DNA of 61,450 bases from Dehalococcoidia bacterium (GCA_035574915.1 DATLYJ010000177.1:1-61450); one strand, 5' to 3'. Positions 1,751 through 45,213 are shown, counted from the first letter of the stretch. Program-made: numbers and translations. The notes: generated from the letters alone by a model not told the origin.

Positions 1751-1847
1751 CACGACACGAGAATCAACGTTTGTTGATACCAACTTGACCTCCACAACTG
1801 TACGTTTGTCCCCACCAGATCATCTCGGAAGAGCCTAGGAGGGGGCC

Positions 1848-2656
1848 ATGCGCCTTCTCAGAGGGCGCGAAGCATTTCGTCGATCATTCCTCGGCATTGC
1901 CGCCACAGGAACAGTGGTGGTCCTAGCGGCCATCTCAGTGTTTCTAATTGTCCGGCAAGCCGCGGTCGGTGGGGGCGTCTCTGCGCGCCCTCAGGCCACG
2001 GTCCTTCCCGGGACCCTTGTCTGTGGAAAGACCTTCGGGCCAGCAGGAGAGGTCGTGGAATCGTATTGTCTCCCCGGCTCGCCGCCTTCGGAGTTCTGGT
2101 ACGTACCGCTCTTGGAGGCTGACAGTAAGAAGCCCCGGGCCAATGGCGTTGTGAACGGGATGCTGATCGGGCCTTCAGTCCAGCCCCGAGGTGGCCCGTG
2201 TGATACTCGCCTTCCTGATGGCCGCTTGCCTTCGCCAACTCCGGCAGCCGCCTCGGAAGCCACGGGGACCGAACTCGAGGTCAGGCCCAAATATCTGCCG
2301 GTAAAGACGGATTTCGTGAGCGCAGAGGCCCTGCGATGCGGTGCTGGACCGGCAGGATTGTCGTGGGTCGAGATGACCTTTCACGTTCGGCCAGATCCCG
2401 CCTCTCTGGGCGCTACGGCGGCATGCTGGTCATACTACGCACGCGTGGCGAACAAGCCGCGCAAGTGGATGTTCCTGCTGATCGCGTGGCGAGTACGACG
2501 GTGGCTGGGCGCCGGAGTGTCGCAGTCCGGCCGCTCACCGAGGATGGGTTCGGGGATTCAGCGTTAGTGATCGCCGAGCCATTTGGTGTCACCGTCATTC
2601 GCGCTCACGGGATTCCCTTCGCGGAACTGGAACGCATAGCGGCTGGACTCTACTAA
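1848..2656 (+). pseudogene. Membrane-anchored extracellular protein of unknown function, frameshifted
   Basis: The N-terminus (ATG 1848, preceded by AGGAGGGGG) is basic and then has one hydrophobic segment (about residues 14-36), so the rest should lie outside the membrane. The first frame stays sensible to ...HVRPDPASL at 2408; thereafter a different frame continues as RYGGMLVILRTRGEQ and ends LERIAAGLY at 2656. Restoring one G to the GGG at 2408-2410 joins them into one protein of about 269 residues. Its C-terminal pattern (Met-Leu-Val-Ile strand, ending in an Ile-Ala-x-x-Leu helix) resembles DUF4367-like lipoprotein domains, which I offer only as a resemblance. Left uncorrected, the first frame ends at 2567. 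A good SD for the next gene follows 4 bases after the restored stop, suggesting an operon. Confidence 0.55.
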
Positions 2657-2667
2657 AGGAGAAATTC

Positions 2668-3294
2668 ATGCGCCGCATTTGTGCCTTCCTGATTGCTGCG
2701 ACCCTTGGAGGGGCAGTAGTCGGGTCGCTTTTTCCCGTGTCCTCAGCTGCCGCAGTCTACGTAACGCTCTATTCCCATGGGGGAGCTGGCAACTACCTGG
2801 AGTGCGGTTGGCACGGCGTATGCATTAACCCTCCAAGCCCAGGAAACGCGCTGGATTGGTCGTCTCACAGCGGCTCTCCAGAAAACGTCTTTTGGCGGTC
2901 GTACGGTGAGAGGAGCGATTACACCGACTACATAGCAGTCGCTACTATCCGGACTCAACACAGTGGATGTCACAGGGTCCGGGTCGACGTGTCTGACGCC
3001 TTTGGATTCTCGAAGGGCTCGATTCTCTATACTCATACCAACACATCGAAAGCCGGACAGGCATTCTACATCTATGGGGGGCCTAATCCAGCCTGGACGA
3101 GCTCATTGATCGCGTCCACTGTGTGGGACGGGAGCAATTGCTCCTGGTCCGGCTACCATAATCACCAGTTATCCACGGGGTACCCTTGGTACGACAATTG
3201 GTCGAGGTATCCTTCCGCTCCCGCCAATGGCTGGTCAAACCCGACGCTCTGGCTCTGGCATCAGTCGCTCCAGGGATGGTGTTGGTCTTGTTAG
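2668..3294 (+). CDS. Secreted Trp/Tyr/Ser-rich protein of unknown function
   Basis: A 208-residue protein with a clear Sec signal peptide: MRRICAFLIAATLGGAVVG, a hydrophobic core and likely cleavage near SSAAA about residue 28. The mature part is rich in Trp, Tyr, Ser, Asn and Gly, has eight or so Cys, and ends WLWHQSLQGWCWSC, so an exported, disulfide-stabilised domain is likely. The start is supported by AAAGGAG seven bases upstream. Base composition is visibly less GC-rich than the flanking metabolic genes, and it follows another exported gene 11 bases upstream, so both look like a small acquired accessory unit. I recognise no family. Confidence 0.75.
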   Translation: MRRICAFLIAATLGGAVVGSLFPVSSAAAVYVTLYSHGGAGNYLECGWHGVCINPPSPGNALDWSSHSGSPENVFWRSYGERSDYTDYIAVATIRTQHSGCHRVRVDVSDAFGFSKGSILYTHTNTSKAGQAFYIYGGPNPAWTSSLIASTVWDGSNCSWSGYHNHQLSTGYPWYDNWSRYPSAPANGWSNPTLWLWHQSLQGWCWSC

Positions 3295-3363
3295 TGGCGA
3301 TCGCCGCCCGCTCCGCCCCATCCGCTTGCCCTCACACCACCCGTCACCTACGATTGCGAAGCT

Positions 3364-4062
3364 GTGACAACGCTTGCTGAAGTCGTGTCAGCGGCCCGCT
3401 CGCAGGGACGCCGGCTCCTGAACGAGGTCGAGGCGAAGCAGGTGCTGGCCGAGGCCGGCGTGCCCGTCGTGCCGGCAAAGCTGGCGCGGACGCGGGACGA
3501 GGCCGTCGCCCTGGCGCGCGAGGCCGGCTTCCCCGTCGCCCTCAAGGTCGTCTCGCTCGATATCGCCCACAAGAGCGATGTCGGCGGCGTGAAGCTCGGC
3601 CTCGCCGACGAGGCCGCCGTCGCCGCCGCCTTCGACGAGATCATGACCTCGGCGAAGCAGGCGCAGCCTGACGCCCGCATCGACGGCGTCTCCGTCCAGG
3701 AGATGGCCGCGCCCGGCACCGAGGTCATCATCGGGGTGAACACGGACCCGCAGTTCGGGCCCGTGCTCATGTTCGGGCTCGGCGGCGTCCTCGTCGAAGT
3801 GCTCGAAGACGTCGCCTTCCGCATCGTCCCCATCGAGCCCCGCGACGCCCGCCACATGGTGCGCGAGATCAAGGGCTTCAAGCTGCTCGAGGGCTACCGC
3901 GGCTCGCCGCCGGCGGATGTCGCGGCCCTGGAGTCGCTGCTGCTCAAAGTCTCGGAGTTCGTCGACGCCCACCCGGAGGTGGCGGAGCTGGACCTTAACC
4001 CCGTGTTCGCCTACCCGGACGGAGCGGTGGCCGTGGACGCGCGCATCGTCCTGGCGGATTAG
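3364..4062 (+). CDS. ATP-grasp domain protein (acyl-CoA synthetase NDP-forming, beta-subunit-like)
   Basis: A 232-residue ATP-grasp_5 protein, the beta-type half of ADP/NDP-forming acyl-CoA synthetases, which couple acyl-CoA hydrolysis to nucleotide phosphorylation. Visible family marks are the N-terminal LLNEVEAKQVLAEAGVPVV helix, FPVALKVVSLDIAHKSDVGGV (nucleotide-binding strand and loop), a central GTEVIIGVNTDPQFGPVLMFGLGG segment split here as EVIIGV and PVLMFGLGG, and the C-terminal ELDLNPVFAY strand. Length matches a free-standing beta chain; no CoA-binding alpha domain is adjacent, so the partner must be elsewhere. The start is GTG at 3364. Composition returns to the strongly GC-rich pattern of housekeeping genes. 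Confidence 0.85.
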   Translation: MTTLAEVVSAARSQGRRLLNEVEAKQVLAEAGVPVVPAKLARTRDEAVALAREAGFPVALKVVSLDIAHKSDVGGVKLGLADEAAVAAAFDEIMTSAKQAQPDARIDGVSVQEMAAPGTEVIIGVNTDPQFGPVLMFGLGGVLVEVLEDVAFRIVPIEPRDARHMVREIKGFKLLEGYRGSPPADVAALESLLLKVSEFVDAHPEVAELDLNPVFAYPDGAVAVDARIVLAD

Positions 4063-4145
4063 CGGGGAGGACAGAGCGCGGTGCCAGAAGGGTGCAGCGC
4101 GGACCTGAGCGGACTGTCAGCCGTCAGACGTCGAGGGAGTAGGGA

Positions 4146-4238
4146 TTGAACAAGCGTAAGAGAGTGGCCTGGGCGAAGCACCGCAAGAAGGCGAAGAAGC
4201 TGCTTCTCAAGAAGCGAGCCGCCAGGGAGTCGAAGTAA
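4146..4238 (+). CDS. AURKAIP1/COX24-domain ribosomal microprotein (mS38/bS22-like)
   Basis: A 30-codon frame starting with TTG at 4146, preceded by GAGGGAGTAGGGA and by an in-frame TAG at 4140, which fixes this start. The product is almost entirely basic: KRKRVAWAKHRKKAKKLLL in the core, then KKRAARESK. The K-R-K-R ... K-H-R-K-K pattern matches the short AURKAIP1/COX24 (DUF1713) domain, known as mitochondrial mS38 and as the 33-residue bS22 bound near the decoding centre of mycobacterial ribosomes. Assignment rests on this pattern and size alone. The gene stands alone between a plus-strand ATP-grasp gene and a GC-rich hairpin. Confidence 0.65.
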   Translation: MNKRKRVAWAKHRKKAKKLLLKKRAARESK

Positions 4239-4260
4239 CAGGCCTCACCTGAATTCCGCC

Positions 4261-4295
4261 CGCTGTCCCGGGCCGCTGCCGGCCCCAGCGACAGC
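4261..4295. terminator. GC-rich nested hairpin between convergent genes
   Basis: An outer stem CGCTGTC / GACAGCG encloses an inner GGGCCG-CTG-CCGGCCC stem, located between the end of the plus-strand microprotein gene and the stop of the minus-strand reductase gene. There is no T-tract, so it may be a roadblock or transcript-end stabiliser rather than a canonical intrinsic terminator. Confidence 0.4.
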
Positions 4296-4313
4296 GTCAC
4301 AGCGTCCGCAGAC

Positions 4314-4649
4314 TCAACCCTCGAGGTCGATAGCCACGGGAAGCGCGGAGCGGCCCCAGTCCGCGAGGTCTCCCGAGTACCCCGGACTGTACTTCTCGAG
4401 TAGCAGGCGCCGGGCGAGGGCGTCCTCTTCGCTGTCCGCGTCCACGAGCCGGGCGCGGCCGGCATGGTCGACGTCGGCGATGCGCACCCGCACCTCCGGG
4501 TTGCGCATGAGGTTACGCACCCAATCGGAACGGTGGCGGCCGCCGGCGAGCAGGTACAGGGTATCGCCCTGGCGAGCAAACCAGATCTCGATAGTGTGCG
4601 GCCTGCCGGTGACGCGGCCTGTAGTGGTGAGATAGCAGTAGGGTGTCAC
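4314..4649 (-). CDS. Deazaflavin (F420)-dependent nitroreductase family protein
   Basis: A 111-residue single-domain split-barrel protein of the DDN/DUF385 family, whose members use reduced coenzyme F420 to reduce quinones, nitro compounds or other substrates. Typical family features are YLTTTGRVTGRPHTIEIWFA at the start (beta-turn with the GR..G.P motif), LYLLAGGRHRSDWVRNL in the middle, and NPEVRVRIAD. Its ATG at 4649 overlaps the stop of the upstream S51 peptidase gene as ATGA, implying translational coupling as the last gene of a minus-strand operon. Substrate is unknown. Confidence 0.85.
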   Translation of the reverse strand: MTPYCYLTTTGRVTGRPHTIEIWFARQGDTLYLLAGGRHRSDWVRNLMRNPEVRVRIADVDHAGRARLVDADSEEDALARRLLLEKYSPGYSGDLADWGRSALPVAIDLEG

Positions 4650-5392
4650 CGCGCCCGCTCAGGCGGCGGGAGCGAGTCGATGACGTCGCCCGGGCGGTAG
4701 AGGCGGGGCGCGGCGCCTTTCTCGAAGACCTGGACGCGCTTGTGGCCCATCGCCCGCCAGGCGCCGTCGTGCCAGACAATCGCCGTATCCTCGTCCACGC
4801 CGGCAAGCTTCTGGCCCGGCGCGAGACCATCGATGGCGCGCTGCAGCATCTCCGGCCGGCGCTCGGCGAAGCGGTCGAAGTGGGACATCGCCCGCACCGG
4901 CGCGGCCAGACCAAGGCCCGTAGGGCCGGGTGGCGCCTGGCCATCGGGACCGGGCTGGTGCACGTGGGGGTTCAGCACCCCGAGGCCGCCGCTGGCCCCG
5001 GCGACCGCCGCGCCGGCTGCATTCGCATCCTGGAGGGCTGCCCAGGCGAGGGTGCCGTCGAAGGAGCGGGCGAGGTAGGCGGCGCTGCCGCCGGAGAACC
5101 AGACCAGGCCGGCGTTCGCGATCAGTTCGGCGTGCTTCTCGATGTTCGCCTCCTCCTGATTGCGGATGCGCACCGGTATCGCCTCGACCCCGAACTTACG
5201 GAAGTGTCGCACGCCGAGCTGCTCCCACCAGGCCATGCGCTCGTCCCCCTCCATGGCGCAGGCGGTGGCGATGAGGATGACGGCGCGCCCGTTCAGCACT
5301 TCCAGCAGGAAGCGGTCGACGACCTCCATCGTCTCCGTGTACTCGCCGGAGCCGGCGAGCACCAGGGGGCCGATACCGCCGTTCGCGGTCAT
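4646..5392 (-). CDS. Peptidase S51 / cyanophycinase-like serine hydrolase
   Basis: A 248-residue protein with the S51 (dipeptidase E/cyanophycinase) architecture: GPLVLAGSGEYTE at the N-terminus, a Rossmann-like strand AVILIATACAMEG, LVWFSGGSAAYLA, and the probable nucleophile elbow AGASGGL, where the usual GxSAGA has Gly for Ala. The start was taken as ATG 5392 because the family N-terminus begins there and it overlaps the upstream hydrolase stop as ATGA; the frame is open 65 codons further but that part is low-complexity Arg/Pro. Likely a small-peptide or ester hydrolase in the cytoplasm; substrate not predictable. Confidence 0.8.
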   Translation of the reverse strand: MTANGGIGPLVLAGSGEYTETMEVVDRFLLEVLNGRAVILIATACAMEGDERMAWWEQLGVRHFRKFGVEAIPVRIRNQEEANIEKHAELIANAGLVWFSGGSAAYLARSFDGTLAWAALQDANAAGAAVAGASGGLGVLNPHVHQPGPDGQAPPGPTGLGLAAPVRAMSHFDRFAERRPEMLQRAIDGLAPGQKLAGVDEDTAIVWHDGAWRAMGHKRVQVFEKGAAPRLYRPGDVIDSLPPPERAR

Positions 5393-41573: not shown

Positions 41574-42305
41574 TCAAGACTCGCGCCAGCGCATTCCCCA
41601 GATGCCGGCGGCAAGGGCCGTAGCGGTGATCGCGGCGAGCAAGCCCATCTCCGCGTAAAGGACGCCCGCGCCGGAGAGCACGCCATCGATTGCGGTCGCC
41701 GCGTGGGTGTAGGGCGAGAGCCTGGCCGGCCACTCCATCCAGTCCGGTAGCCGCGAGAGCGGGTAGTACAGCGGCGAAAACAGGACGACGAGGATGCCGA
41801 TGGTGTTCGACAGCAGGTTCCCCATCTGGGCGCTCGGCGCCCAGGTACCGATTACAAGCGCCAGTCCCGTAAGCGAGAGAGCGCAGAGCACGAGCAACGG
41901 AGCGAGCCAGAGGCTTAACTCGATATCGATGCCGAACATGGGCGCGAACAGCAGGATGATGGCCGATGTGAGCAGCCCGCGCAGTAAGCCGGAGACGATG
42001 ATCCCGGCCGCGTAAGAGGCTTTGTGCACGGGAGAGGTCACGATCAGCTTCAGATGCTGGTTGAAGCGTTCGTTGACAAGGGTCTGCGACAGCTCATTCA
42101 CGATCGTCAGGCCCAGGCTGAAGACAAGCGAGCCGGTGATGAGCCTGCTGCCGACATCAACGCCTTCCGGCGAGAGGTTCTGGGCGAAGAAGAGGAAGGA
42201 GAGCGGGAAGAGAGTGAAGATCAGGAGATAGATGACCAACTCGCGCCGGATCACGAGAAAGTGGATCCAGGCCACCACCGCCGCATCGCTGATGAGCTTA
42301 GGCAA
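41574..42305 (-). CDS. ABC-2 type transporter permease
   Basis: A 243-residue permease with six hydrophobic segments: ELVIYLLIFTLFPLSFLFFA, LITGSLVFSLGLTIVNELSQ, ASYAAGIIVSGLLRGLLTSA, LWLAPLLVLCALSLTGLALV, LLSNTIGILVVLFSPLYYPL and GLLAAITATALAAGIWGM. The FSPLYYPLSRLPDWMEW segment after the fifth helix is the ABC-2 signature. Its start overlaps the ATPase gene by 8 bases. With that ATPase it would form an exporter for a drug, lipid or polysaccharide; the regulator and DUF4097 context suggest envelope stress. Confidence 0.92.
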   Translation of the reverse strand: MPKLISDAAVVAWIHFLVIRRELVIYLLIFTLFPLSFLFFAQNLSPEGVDVGSRLITGSLVFSLGLTIVNELSQTLVNERFNQHLKLIVTSPVHKASYAAGIIVSGLLRGLLTSAIILLFAPMFGIDIELSLWLAPLLVLCALSLTGLALVIGTWAPSAQMGNLLSNTIGILVVLFSPLYYPLSRLPDWMEWPARLSPYTHAATAIDGVLSGAGVLYAEMGLLAAITATALAAGIWGMRWRES

Positions 42306-43212
42306 CTTCCGCCTCCCCTAGCTCCGTACCGGTCAGCTCCAGGTAGAGGTCCTCCAGGCTCGCCCGCATCAGGGAGTACTCGGCGGCGCCCGCTCGTTCC
42401 AGTTGCTCGGCCACCTCCCGCTGGCTCTGGCCATACACCACCTGGCGCTGGCCGCGCTCGTCCTGGTAGACGCCCTTGAAGCGGTTACGGCAGCGCGCGC
42501 GCAGCTCGTCGACGCTGCCCAGAGCGAGGATGCGGCCGCTGCCGATCACGGCAACGCTGTCGCTCAATTCCTCGGCCTCGTCCATGTAGTGGGTCGTGAT
42601 GAGGACGGTCGACCCCTGGTCGCGTATGTCGCGGATCAGGGACCAGACCTCGCGGCGGGAGTGGGGGTCGAGCCCGGTGGTGGGCTCGTCGAGGATGAGC
42701 ACCTCGGGCTCGGCGACCATGGCCATGCCGACCAGGAGCTTGCGGCGCAGCCCGCCCGATAGATGGCGCGCCTGCTTGCCGTCATGCTGGCGAAGGTCGA
42801 GCGCGTCCAGCAGGGCCTCGGCGCGCACGTCTGCCTGGCGGCCGGAGAGACCCCGGAGCCGGCCGAAGAGACGGAGATGCTCGGAGGGGCGCATGTGCAT
42901 GTATGGGAGGGCCTCCTGCGGCACGACGCCCATCAGCCTCTTGGCGCGCAACGGCTCCCGGAGCACGTCCACCCCCAGGAGCTCGATCTCGCCGCTGGTC
43001 GGCTTCAGTTCGGCGGTTATCTGGCGCACCAGCGTGGTCTTGCCGGCGCCGTTCGGCCCCAGGAGCGCGAACACGGCGCCGCGGGGGATCGTCAGCTCGA
43101 TGCCGTCGTTCGCCAGCGCGCCGTTGCGATAGCGCTTCGTGACGCCGCCCAACACGATCGCTGGTGCGGCCGCTACCGCCGCGCCGGTAGCTTCGGGCAA
43201 GGCGACCGCCAT
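42298..43212 (-). CDS. ABC transporter ATP-binding protein
   Basis: A 304-residue ABC ATPase of the drug/daunorubicin export type: Walker A LLGPNGAGKTTLVRQ, Q-loop GVVPQEALPYMHM, signature HLSGGLRRKLLVGMAM, Walker B EVLILDEPTTGLDPHSRREV and switch TTHYMDEAEELSD. The signature reads LSGGLRRK rather than LSGGQ, which is common in this subfamily. The C-terminal 70 residues form the usual accessory region. ATG 43212 overlaps the stop of the DUF4097 gene by one base, and the stop overlaps the permease start, so the three are translationally coupled. Confidence 0.95.
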   Translation of the reverse strand: MAVALPEATGAAVAAAPAIVLGGVTKRYRNGALANDGIELTIPRGAVFALLGPNGAGKTTLVRQITAELKPTSGEIELLGVDVLREPLRAKRLMGVVPQEALPYMHMRPSEHLRLFGRLRGLSGRQADVRAEALLDALDLRQHDGKQARHLSGGLRRKLLVGMAMVAEPEVLILDEPTTGLDPHSRREVWSLIRDIRDQGSTVLITTHYMDEAEELSDSVAVIGSGRILALGSVDELRARCRNRFKGVYQDERGQRQVVYGQSQREVAEQLERAGAAEYSLMRASLEDLYLELTGTELGEAEVA

Positions 43213-44165
43213 CACAGTTCCGTGAGGCGGATGCCGCCGTTGACCGTCCGGAGACGCACCTTGTAGAGGGGCCCACTCTCCCCGCCCGGCGGCGTCTCGC
43301 GGACGGGCAGGTCCGAGTGCACGCCGCCGTGGACGGACTGAGCGTCTATCTCGAAGCGGCTGTCCGCCGTCACGGCCATGCGGATGCCGCCGTTCGTAGC
43401 CTGAAGCTCGACGTCCCCGTTGACTTTGCCGCTGAATCGGACGGGGCCGTTGGTGCTGGTGGCCTTCACCCCGGCCAGAGGGTCCTGGACCTCGACGGCG
43501 CCATTGCGGGTGCTCACGTCGACATCGCCCCCGGGGCGCTCCACGGACACCGCGCCGTTGGTCGTGCTTACCGTCACGCCACCGGCGCAGCGCGTCACCG
43601 ACGTGCGCCCGTTGTTGTTCTCCACCGTCACGTCCGCGGCCACGTCTTCGAGGGTCACGCGGCCGTTGCGGTTCTCGACGCGGACGGGGCGGCGCGTGCC
43701 CCTCACTCGCACCGGCCCGTTGCGGGAAGTAACCTGCACCTCCGTATCCGCCGGCACCCGAATGTCGTAGTCGACCTTCGGGCCGCGGCCGAAGAAGAAG
43801 ATGCCGAATTCCGGCCGGCGCAACTCCGGGGTAAAGACCTCGACCCTGTCGCCTTCAACCGTGATTGCTTCCTGGAGGCGGCGCAGGAGCTCGTCTGCCT
43901 CGGCCTCGGAGGCCGCGTAGATGTCCGCCGTGACCTCGATGGTCACGCCCGGCTCCTCGTGGCTGGCGATGTCCACGCGGCCGTTCCGGTTCTCGACGCG
44001 CAGGCGCGCCTGATGGCCAGTATCCACCTGGCGCCGGAAAGAGCGCCGGTATAAGTCCATGCCTTCTACTCCCAGCTCCCAGTCCTGATGCTCGGCGTCC
44101 CGGTCCGCGCGCGGGCGGAGGCGGACACGTACGGGAGGAATCCTGCCGATGCCGAAGAAGCCCAT
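43212..44165 (-). CDS. DUF4097 family beta-helix protein
   Basis: A 317-residue protein built of about eight repeats that each turn on an Asn-Gly: RLRVENRNGRVDIAS, QVTSRNGPVRVRG, RVENRNGRVTLED, TVENNNGRTSVTR, TVSTTNGAVSVER, DVSTRNGAVEVQD, KATSTNGPVRFSG and ELQATNGGIRMAV. This is the DUF4097 right-handed beta-helix, often found beside envelope-stress ABC transporters and membrane PspC/LiaI proteins. There is no signal peptide, so it is probably cytosolic or peripheral. ATG 44165 follows the small membrane protein stop by 2 bases. Confidence 0.88.
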   Translation of the reverse strand: MGFFGIGRIPPVRVRLRPRADRDAEHQDWELGVEGMDLYRRSFRRQVDTGHQARLRVENRNGRVDIASHEEPGVTIEVTADIYAASEAEADELLRRLQEAITVEGDRVEVFTPELRRPEFGIFFFGRGPKVDYDIRVPADTEVQVTSRNGPVRVRGTRRPVRVENRNGRVTLEDVAADVTVENNNGRTSVTRCAGGVTVSTTNGAVSVERPGGDVDVSTRNGAVEVQDPLAGVKATSTNGPVRFSGKVNGDVELQATNGGIRMAVTADSRFEIDAQSVHGGVHSDLPVRETPPGGESGPLYKVRLRTVNGGIRLTEL

Positions 44166-44167
44166 GG

Positions 44168-44356
44168 CTATCGCTCGTCCTGCCAGCCCAGATGTCTGGA
44201 GCGCGGGCCGATGTAGATACGCGGCGCGCCGGACCAGCCGAAGACCGAGAGGCCGGTGAACACCGTCAGGGCGATGAACCATCCTTGCTCGGCGGCCACA
44301 GCCCCGGTGACCAAGAGGAGGCTGATGATGAAGGCCGCGACCCTAATCGCGAACAC
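44168..44356 (-). CDS. Small two-helix membrane protein
   Basis: A 62-residue protein with two hydrophobic helices: AAFIISLLLVTGAVAA and GWFIALTVFTGLSVFGWSG, ending in a basic cytoplasmic tail (PRSRHLGWQDER). Its ATG overlaps the upstream small gene by 14 bases and its stop is two bases before DUF4097, so it belongs to the same transcript. It could anchor the DUF4097 protein to the membrane; this is inference from adjacency. Confidence 0.75.
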   Translation of the reverse strand: MFAIRVAAFIISLLLVTGAVAAEQGWFIALTVFTGLSVFGWSGAPRIYIGPRSRHLGWQDER

Positions 44357-44576
44357 CGGCCGCCTCCAGCGCCATCTGCCCGGGTGTAAGGTTCAGGGCC
44401 TCGGGGTCGAGGCGCAGGCCGGCGCCCACCAGGGCTGCCGCAAGGCGGCGCCGGAGGCCTGGCGCCTTCGGTCCCGAGGTGTGTTCGCCCAGAAACCGCA
44501 GTAGCTCCGCCTCCCGGGGCGTTAGCGGCGAAAGGGCTTCCATCGCCCTGTATTCGATGGACCAGAAGTCGAACAT
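44343..44576 (-). CDS. Small hypothetical protein of the RHH/DUF4097 cassette
   Basis: A 77-residue protein with a helical N-terminal part (SPLTPREAELLRFLGEHTSG), a Lys/Arg-rich middle (KAPGLRRRLAAALVGAGLRL) and LTPGQMALEAAG at the end. It lacks a membrane span. TPREAELLRFL is reminiscent of an HTH first helix, but the domain is too short for a full HTH. It lies 18 bases after the RHH regulator and overlaps the membrane protein gene. Confidence 0.65.
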   Translation of the reverse strand: MFDFWSIEYRAMEALSPLTPREAELLRFLGEHTSGPKAPGLRRRLAAALVGAGLRLDPEALNLTPGQMALEAAGVRD

Positions 44577-44594
44577 GACAGCTCCTTCCGGGCG

Positions 44595-45125
44595 CTAGTC
44601 GCGCCCCACGAATCCGCGCAGGCCGCGGTTGCGGCGCTCCTCGCGTCTTGATTCGCGCCGCTGGTCCCGGATCTCATCCCGCACCTGCCGGGAGATGGTC
44701 CGCGCCAGCTCGCGCACGTACCACGTGTTTACGGACATGCCTCGCAGATTGGCCGCCTGCGCGATCAGCTCCTTGAGCTCGGCCGGCAGGCGGATGGTGA
44801 CCTTCTCGATGTCGCCCTCGGCGGAAAAGAGGCGCTCCGTCTCAGGACCGGCCTCGGCTTCGCTGGCGCCTTCCACCACCAGGTAGAGCTTCCCGCCCTG
44901 GTACTCGAGGCGGACGCTTGCTCCCACGCCGGCCTCGCTCACCGTGGTGGCGACATCCGAAAGGATGTCGAAGATGGCGCGCTCGAGGTGGATCCGCGCC
45001 GCCTCCACGTAGCGCTGCATGTCGGCCCGCCGCTCGGGACTATCGATGAGGGCGAGCGGCCGCTCGAGCGCCTGGAAGACGGCGCTGAGGTCTATCTCTC
45101 GTTGCTGGCGTTGTGCTTGTGTCAT
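44595..45125 (-). CDS. Ribbon-helix-helix domain protein, probable autoregulator
   Basis: A 176-residue protein. Residues 1-100 are an alpha/beta segment (IDLSAVFQALERPLALIDSP, SVRLEYQGGKLYLVVEGASE) of unknown type. A C-terminal Arc/MetJ-like ribbon-helix-helix follows: EKVTIRLPAELKELIAQAAN, LRGMSVNTWYVRELARTIS. The sequence ends in a strongly basic tail (RRESRREERRNRGLRG). ATG 45125 lies within an operator-like repeat, so autoregulation is likely. It heads a six-gene minus-strand cassette ending in an ABC exporter. It resembles antitoxin DNA-binding domains, but no toxin gene adjoins it. Confidence 0.8.
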   Translation of the reverse strand: MTQAQRQQREIDLSAVFQALERPLALIDSPERRADMQRYVEAARIHLERAIFDILSDVATTVSEAGVGASVRLEYQGGKLYLVVEGASEAEAGPETERLFSAEGDIEKVTIRLPAELKELIAQAANLRGMSVNTWYVRELARTISRQVRDEIRDQRRESRREERRNRGLRGFVGRD

Positions 45126-45157
45126 GCCAGCATGGTGCCAGCATCGTTGATGGCATG
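45123..45157 (-). promoter_or_regulatory. Operator-like repeats at the head of the RHH/DUF4097/ABC cassette
   Basis: Two direct copies of TGCCAGCAT (45125-45133 and 45136-45144) are spaced by 11 bases, one helical turn, and an inverted copy TGGCATG (45151-45157) mirrors CATGCCA (45123-45129). This is the usual layout for cooperative binding by ribbon-helix-helix dimers, and it covers the start codon of the RHH gene. Function is inferred. Confidence 0.6.
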
Positions 45158-45213
45158 TCAAGGGCCTGCAAACGAAAATTCTTCAGGATTTCTCGCAGTC
45201 GCTCGGGCGGCGC

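Follow-up and report, generated by a model that had tools for sequence, protein, structure and literature searches.

An RHH–Toastrack operon with a putative cross-phylum operator and a separately recruited exporter in a Dehalococcoidia bacterium

Six consecutive genes in a 61,450-nucleotide stretch of DNA from a Dehalococcoidia bacterium (GCA_035574915.1 DATLYJ010000177.1:1-61450; hereafter the window) encode a ribbon-helix-helix (RHH) transcription factor, two small proteins, a DUF4097 (Toastrack) protein and an ABC-2 exporter, which raises the question of whether they constitute one inherited system and how that system would be controlled. All six minus-strand frames were confirmed, with successive gaps of 18, −14, 2, −4 and −8 nt, and 106 nt separate the run from the next gene. 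Judged from the sequence, the six genes form one operon, which comprises the RHH protein (176 aa, 44595..45125), a 77-aa helical protein (S77, 44343..44576), a 62-aa membrane hairpin (S62, 44168..44356), the Toastrack protein (317 aa, 43212..44165), a DrrA-like ABC ATPase (42298..43215) and its partner ABC-2 permease (41574..42305). Pfam searches returned HicB/Arc-type RHH (PF05534, 7.7e-5), DUF4097 (9e-14), ABC_tran (2e-27) and ABC2_membrane (2e-21), confirming the gene identities proposed in an earlier note on this DNA, and assigned no family to S77, S62 or the N-terminus of the RHH protein. PADLOC detected no defence family at the locus.

By comparison with relatives, both small frames are genuine. 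Homologues of S77 and S62 are present in relatives of the same order, so their conservation was borne out. Within one genus, dN/dS was ~0.04-0.18 for S62 and ~0.08-0.24 for the C-terminal motif of S77; the value for full-length S77, from the one pair compared, was weaker (~0.67). S62 shows a clear transmembrane helix and a second, borderline one, and its family was detected in 12 of 294 genomes of the class, always within an RHH–Toastrack operon. S77, which carries the motif RxxLAxxLVxxGLRLDxxA and for which AlphaFold gave helices only at low confidence, is nearly as tied to the operon, yet is also found elsewhere. Lone copies occur, and in the window's own genome one such copy is a second S77-like gene standing by itself (G000:C105:22728-22931, L208). 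At L211 (G631:C494, ~1800-4030, reverse strand), an S77-like gene lies directly upstream of an ABC-2 exporter with neither DUF4097 nor RHH, and at L182 (G016:C65, 981-1967) one stands between genes for a DUF2089 regulator and a SHOCT-like protein, in a locus with an assembly gap and, ~2 kb downstream, an orthologue of the window exporter. In family f3 (L016, L020, L022, L023, L025, L027), S62 has been tandemly duplicated within one gene, turning the two-helix hairpin into a four-helix protein. When every S62 and S77 homologue was run against Pfam, nothing rose above chance, and no link to LiaI-LiaF emerged.

Orthologues of the RHH protein, at 40-47% identity, were found in 13 of the 17 other genomes of the order, and the relatives' gene order is RHH–S77–S62–DUF4097. 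Where DUF4097 and at least 1.5 kb past it could be read, in 10 order loci, no exporter comes next in the operon. By sequence comparison, the conserved unit is RHH–S77–S62–DUF4097, and the six genes are not one inherited six-gene system. The co-conservation of all six, named earlier as a check, was thus contradicted within the order, where these four genes occur without the exporter, an outcome that the earlier note had itself named as evidence against its reading. Gene content around the unit varies: a GNAT gene lies upstream in three f4 loci (G008, G010 and G014), G008 adds a P450 upstream of the GNAT, and G016 keeps the RHH gene with no adjacent S77. In several f3 loci (L020, L022, L024, L025, L027), a thioredoxin-like protein is encoded between the S62-like gene and DUF4097, with its CxxC replaced by SSRxKQRP or SSRCRQRP. 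The window Toastrack protein scored 51.8 bits against PF13349 (gathering score 22.9), and no signal peptide or transmembrane segment was apparent in its sequence. At the N-terminus its frame is ~35 residues longer than in order relatives, and the true start may be the ATG at 44060.

Upstream of the RHH genes, a common operator design was recognised, consisting of 8-bp TGNNNNCA boxes in an 11-bp repeat under a TTGACA-like promoter. On the minus strand of the window, these are box 1 (TGCCATCA, 45148..45155; the same box sequence occurs in order relatives), box 2 (TGCTGGCA, 45136..45143) and box 3 (TGCTGGCA, 45125..45132), with boxes 1 and 2 spaced 12 bp, not 11 bp. The putative −35 element TTGACA (45156..45161, minus strand) has a TTGACA-like counterpart in the same place in most of 39 homologous promoters, and a weak putative −10, CACCAT (45132-45137, minus strand), would have transcription begin at the ATG or close to it; a strict consensus promoter scanner called neither element. 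The 39 promoters contained 37 box pairs at 11 bp compared with 2 in control stretches farther upstream (29/39 promoters with such a pair vs. 1/39 control stretches), although these promoters share descent and so do not amount to independent trials. On the three-box score, 32/39 promoters and 1.3% of Markov-resampled sequences reached at least 10 of 12; here the ATGG appended to each promoter to take in the start codon contributes the last A of box 3. Across 18 order genomes, the two-box pattern occurred at 14 distinct sites, 12 of them at the RHH operon, and the reversed-pattern control gave none. A trans-acting regulon was considered and rejected, as the 2 other sites both lack the GCC core and were taken as chance.

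The position of the boxes follows the head of the operon. In G010 and G014, they stand in front of the added GNAT gene, and in G008 in front of the P450–GNAT pair; because the boxes precede these added genes, the putative operator predicts operon heads and relocates ahead of genes added upstream. Box 3 ends on the first letter of the RHH start codon, which is why the RHH gene most likely starts at the ATG at 45125 and not at ~45157. The window has order-type boxes but differs from its order relatives in that the last box ends on the start-codon A (45125), an overlap shared by almost every Actinomycetota and distant Chloroflexota locus. This placement suggests a transcript start near the ATG, and the RHH message is probably leaderless.

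A wider family emerged when 400 Chloroflexota genomes were searched with a profile: more remote proteins match the RHH domain and C-terminal tail, in loci ordered RHH–DUF4097–ABC–ABC or, in family f99, RHH–ABC–ABC–DUF4097. Plasmid records searched with tblastn added RHH proteins from Streptomyces, Streptantibioticus, Embleya, Nonomuraea and Tsukamurella, Actinomycetota being sampled through plasmid-collection records only. DUF4097 followed the RHH gene in all 12 annotated records; an ABC pair came next in 7, and other genes, among them ones for a P450, a serine hydrolase and an alpha/beta hydrolase, in the remaining 5. Comparison of the promoters indicates that the putative operator is common to the window, distant Chloroflexota and Streptomyces. 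Moreover, a change in box sequence goes along with a change in the RHH contact strand (K-T-R vs. R-N-R): TGCCAKCA or its complement goes with the strand E-K-x-T-x-R in the order, and TGGYRCCA with R-x-N-x-R in most loci outside it. S77 and S62 were not seen outside the class; the small proteins would therefore not be essential to the basic mechanism.

On these comparisons, which carry the operon, the operator, the conserved core and the separate recruitment of the exporter described below, we infer a negatively autoregulated stress operon in which repression by the RHH protein is relieved upon stress sensing by the Toastrack protein, switching on the module and its cargo exporter; we give this reading a probability of about one half. 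The RHH protein most likely represses its own operon. It would bind the three 8-bp boxes, one helical turn apart, over the promoter and start codon, and so keep the operon off. One-turn spacing suits cooperative side-by-side binding of RHH dimers, as in the Arc and MetJ operators. The Toastrack protein would be cytosolic and anchored to the inner membrane face through the S62 hairpin and the helical S77. There it would register envelope or antimicrobial stress and relieve repression, perhaps by gripping the repressor's conserved C-terminal G-W-V tail. Relief would turn on the module and the attached cargo, here a DrrAB-like ABC-2 exporter that may remove a membrane-active compound. Ravi et al. 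(2024, PMC11237479) proposed that Toastrack proteins serve as cytosolic platforms on the inner face of the membrane. This proposal, together with a DUF4097 protein lacking an apparent membrane segment and the membrane helices of S62, makes a membrane-tethered Toastrack circuit plausible.

The architecture of the RHH protein bears on where the signal would enter. In the window protein, an N-terminal domain of no assigned family precedes an Arc/AtaR-type RHH (~residues 104-145), a basic linker and a C-terminal G-F-V-G tail. The nearest solved sequences to the Actinomycetota-type RHH profile are AtaR/KacA-type antitoxins, Mnt and Arc, all of them weak matches. The earlier view that the N-terminal domain has no known relative held, since neither Pfam nor the PDB gave a match and hence no known sensor domain; the monomer model is of moderate confidence (pTM 0.43), and its Foldseek search against the PDB gave no significant match (best E no better than 0.2). 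As an alternative, the protein could be a one-component drug switch whose N-terminal domain binds an inducer, such as the exported antibiotic or a lipid, leaving the Toastrack and small proteins as downstream effectors with no part in signalling. A ~90-residue N-terminal domain does stand before the RHH in every family member, is well conserved in the order with a model pLDDT near 80, and RHH–DUF4097 pairs occur in antibiotic clusters, as such a switch might lead one to expect. However, hhalign between the order proteins and the distant and Actinomycetota proteins gave a probability of 98.4% (E 8e-15) for the RHH domain plus C-terminal tail and of 1.5% for the N-terminal domains, the latter on shallow profiles. 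The two N-terminal domains share a similar helix-helix-strand-strand outline by eye but are not demonstrably homologous. These values point to the tail, kept across phyla as G-W/F-V behind a variable linker, as the shared functional element, and DUF4097 is the sole partner almost always present. The drug switch is thus possible but the less probable account, and the tail is a candidate contact point.

A toxin–antitoxin module, with the RHH protein as a HicB-like antitoxin and one of the small proteins as the toxin, was also weighed. Relatives are often annotated in public records as 'toxin-antitoxin system HicB family antitoxin', the window protein has a Pfam HicB match, and antitoxins are typically autoregulated. 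Of the HicB antitoxin fold, which includes a partial RNase H-like domain, that match covers the short RHH part; the N-terminus gave no match in sequence, nor did its moderate-confidence model in the PDB. HicAB systems, however, have an adjacent HicA toxin; neither HicA nor any other toxin was seen beside the RHH gene in the window or in any relative's locus examined. S77 and S62 match no toxin family, S77 copies exist without an RHH gene, and in Actinomycetota loci no small gene separates RHH from DUF4097. We consider this reading very improbable, and the HicB antitoxin label looks like a misannotation. No relative of the RHH protein was found in viral contigs or phages.

DrrAB antibiotic exporters are the best NCBIfam matches of both subunits of the window exporter, but under the curated cut-offs (ATPase vs. 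TIGR01188, 251.8 bits, cut-off 312.45; permease vs. TIGR01247, 37.4, cut-off 223.05). The closest homologues of ATPase and permease come from four order genomes that also have the RHH gene, where they lie at other loci. In a 53-sequence tree, the window ATPase joined these homologues in an order-specific lineage (100/100). The RHH-linked exporters found in other Chloroflexota and in Actinomycetota stood apart from it and themselves fall into more than one clade. A common clade of the window exporter with those RHH-linked exporters was rejected by the AU test (p 5e-6). Phylogenetically, the window exporter was recruited separately, and exporters joined RHH–Toastrack units at least twice. The exporter could merely lie downstream, with no functional connection to the unit, as might be supposed from the order relatives, none of which has an exporter there and whose orthologues sit at other loci; but the frames overlap (−4 and −8 nt) and ABC-2 exporters have come to stand behind RHH–Toastrack repeatedly and independently in distant lineages, and a chance neighbourhood is therefore unlikely. 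Their repeated placement argues for a functional tie, though the exporter is dispensable. Many RHH–Toastrack loci have a P450, ferredoxin or hydrolases in its place, which indicates that export is not a constant output of the stress operon.

Homologues of the RHH–DUF4097 pair lie near NRPS, chlorinating-enzyme and ketosynthase genes. At L111 (S. lunaelactis pSLUN1, 3501-4963), on the edge of the lunaemycin cluster, the RHH protein is Lun1 and the DUF4097 protein Lun2, both published as 'unknown' (PMC9866976), and a second DUF4097 gene, Lun27, lies beside the DrrAB-type exporter of that cluster. The antibiotic-cluster context agrees with a possible role in antibiotic self-protection or response. 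A broader and more tentative proposal, which we hold with less confidence than the autoregulated circuit itself, is that RHH–Toastrack is a widespread gene-pair switch for envelope and antibiotic stress in Actinomycetota and Chloroflexota. The Toastrack protein, aided by lineage-specific tethers such as S62 and S77, would act as an anti-repressor capturing the RHH protein by its G-W-V tail, and exporters, P450s and acetyltransferases would be interchangeable cargo under one three-box operator. The circuit offers a specific function for a family often called HicB antitoxin and left unexplained in Streptomyces antibiotic clusters, as with Lun1. Furthermore, it supplies a defined promoter and regulator for Toastrack proteins, about whose role there are mostly hypotheses, and the operator motif could serve to find further members across two phyla.

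Several known systems resemble parts of the locus. Lia/Psp systems (LiaFSR, PspC-Toastrack) likewise place Toastrack beside small membrane proteins in envelope-stress loci; Pfam found no PspA, PspC or LiaI-LiaF domain in the six window proteins, and no two-component system is present at the locus, which upholds the earlier suggestion that RHH control replaces two-component or PspC-type control. DUF2089–Toastrack operons (Ravi et al., 2024), exemplified by L182, offer a Toastrack-type context with an S77-like protein and a nearby orthologue of the window exporter, but L182 has a Zn-ribbon/HTH regulator, no RHH and no operator match found, and its Toastrack region falls in the assembly gap. In the PadR-HAAS-DUF4097 operon of Listeria, an autorepressor, a membrane protein and DUF4097 share one operon, as in the window; this autorepressor, LltR, controls an operon derepressed >100-fold in the mutant (PMC6624303), and is by analogy a precedent for a circuit of the proposed shape. 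It differs in its winged-helix PadR regulator, its multi-spanning DUF1700 protein and the lack of an exporter in the operon.

The closest arrangement is the RHH-Toastrack-ABC operon noted in Actinobacteria (Ravi et al., 2024, PMC11237479), beyond which our literature searches found no further analysis of it. Like the window, it is a single operon headed by RHH, with DUF4097 and then an ABC ATPase and its permease, and in Streptomyces and Tsukamurella it shares the operator design over the RHH start codon, the RHH domain and the C-terminal G-W-V tail. Unlike the window, it lacks S77 and S62, its exporter is of another lineage (Ravi et al., 2024, do not list common descent among the requirements), its N-terminal domain is not demonstrably homologous, and its boxes read TGGYRCCA instead of TGCTGGCA/TGCCATCA. 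The claim that the arrangement is not a described system thus stands in part: RHH-Toastrack-ABC itself had been noted and is seen in Streptomyces and Tsukamurella records, whereas the operator, the small partners and the exporter's origin were not found reported. The operon is genuine and builds on an arrangement that has been lightly described, adding a cross-phylum operator, two small partner families, a separate exporter recruitment and reason to doubt the antitoxin label.
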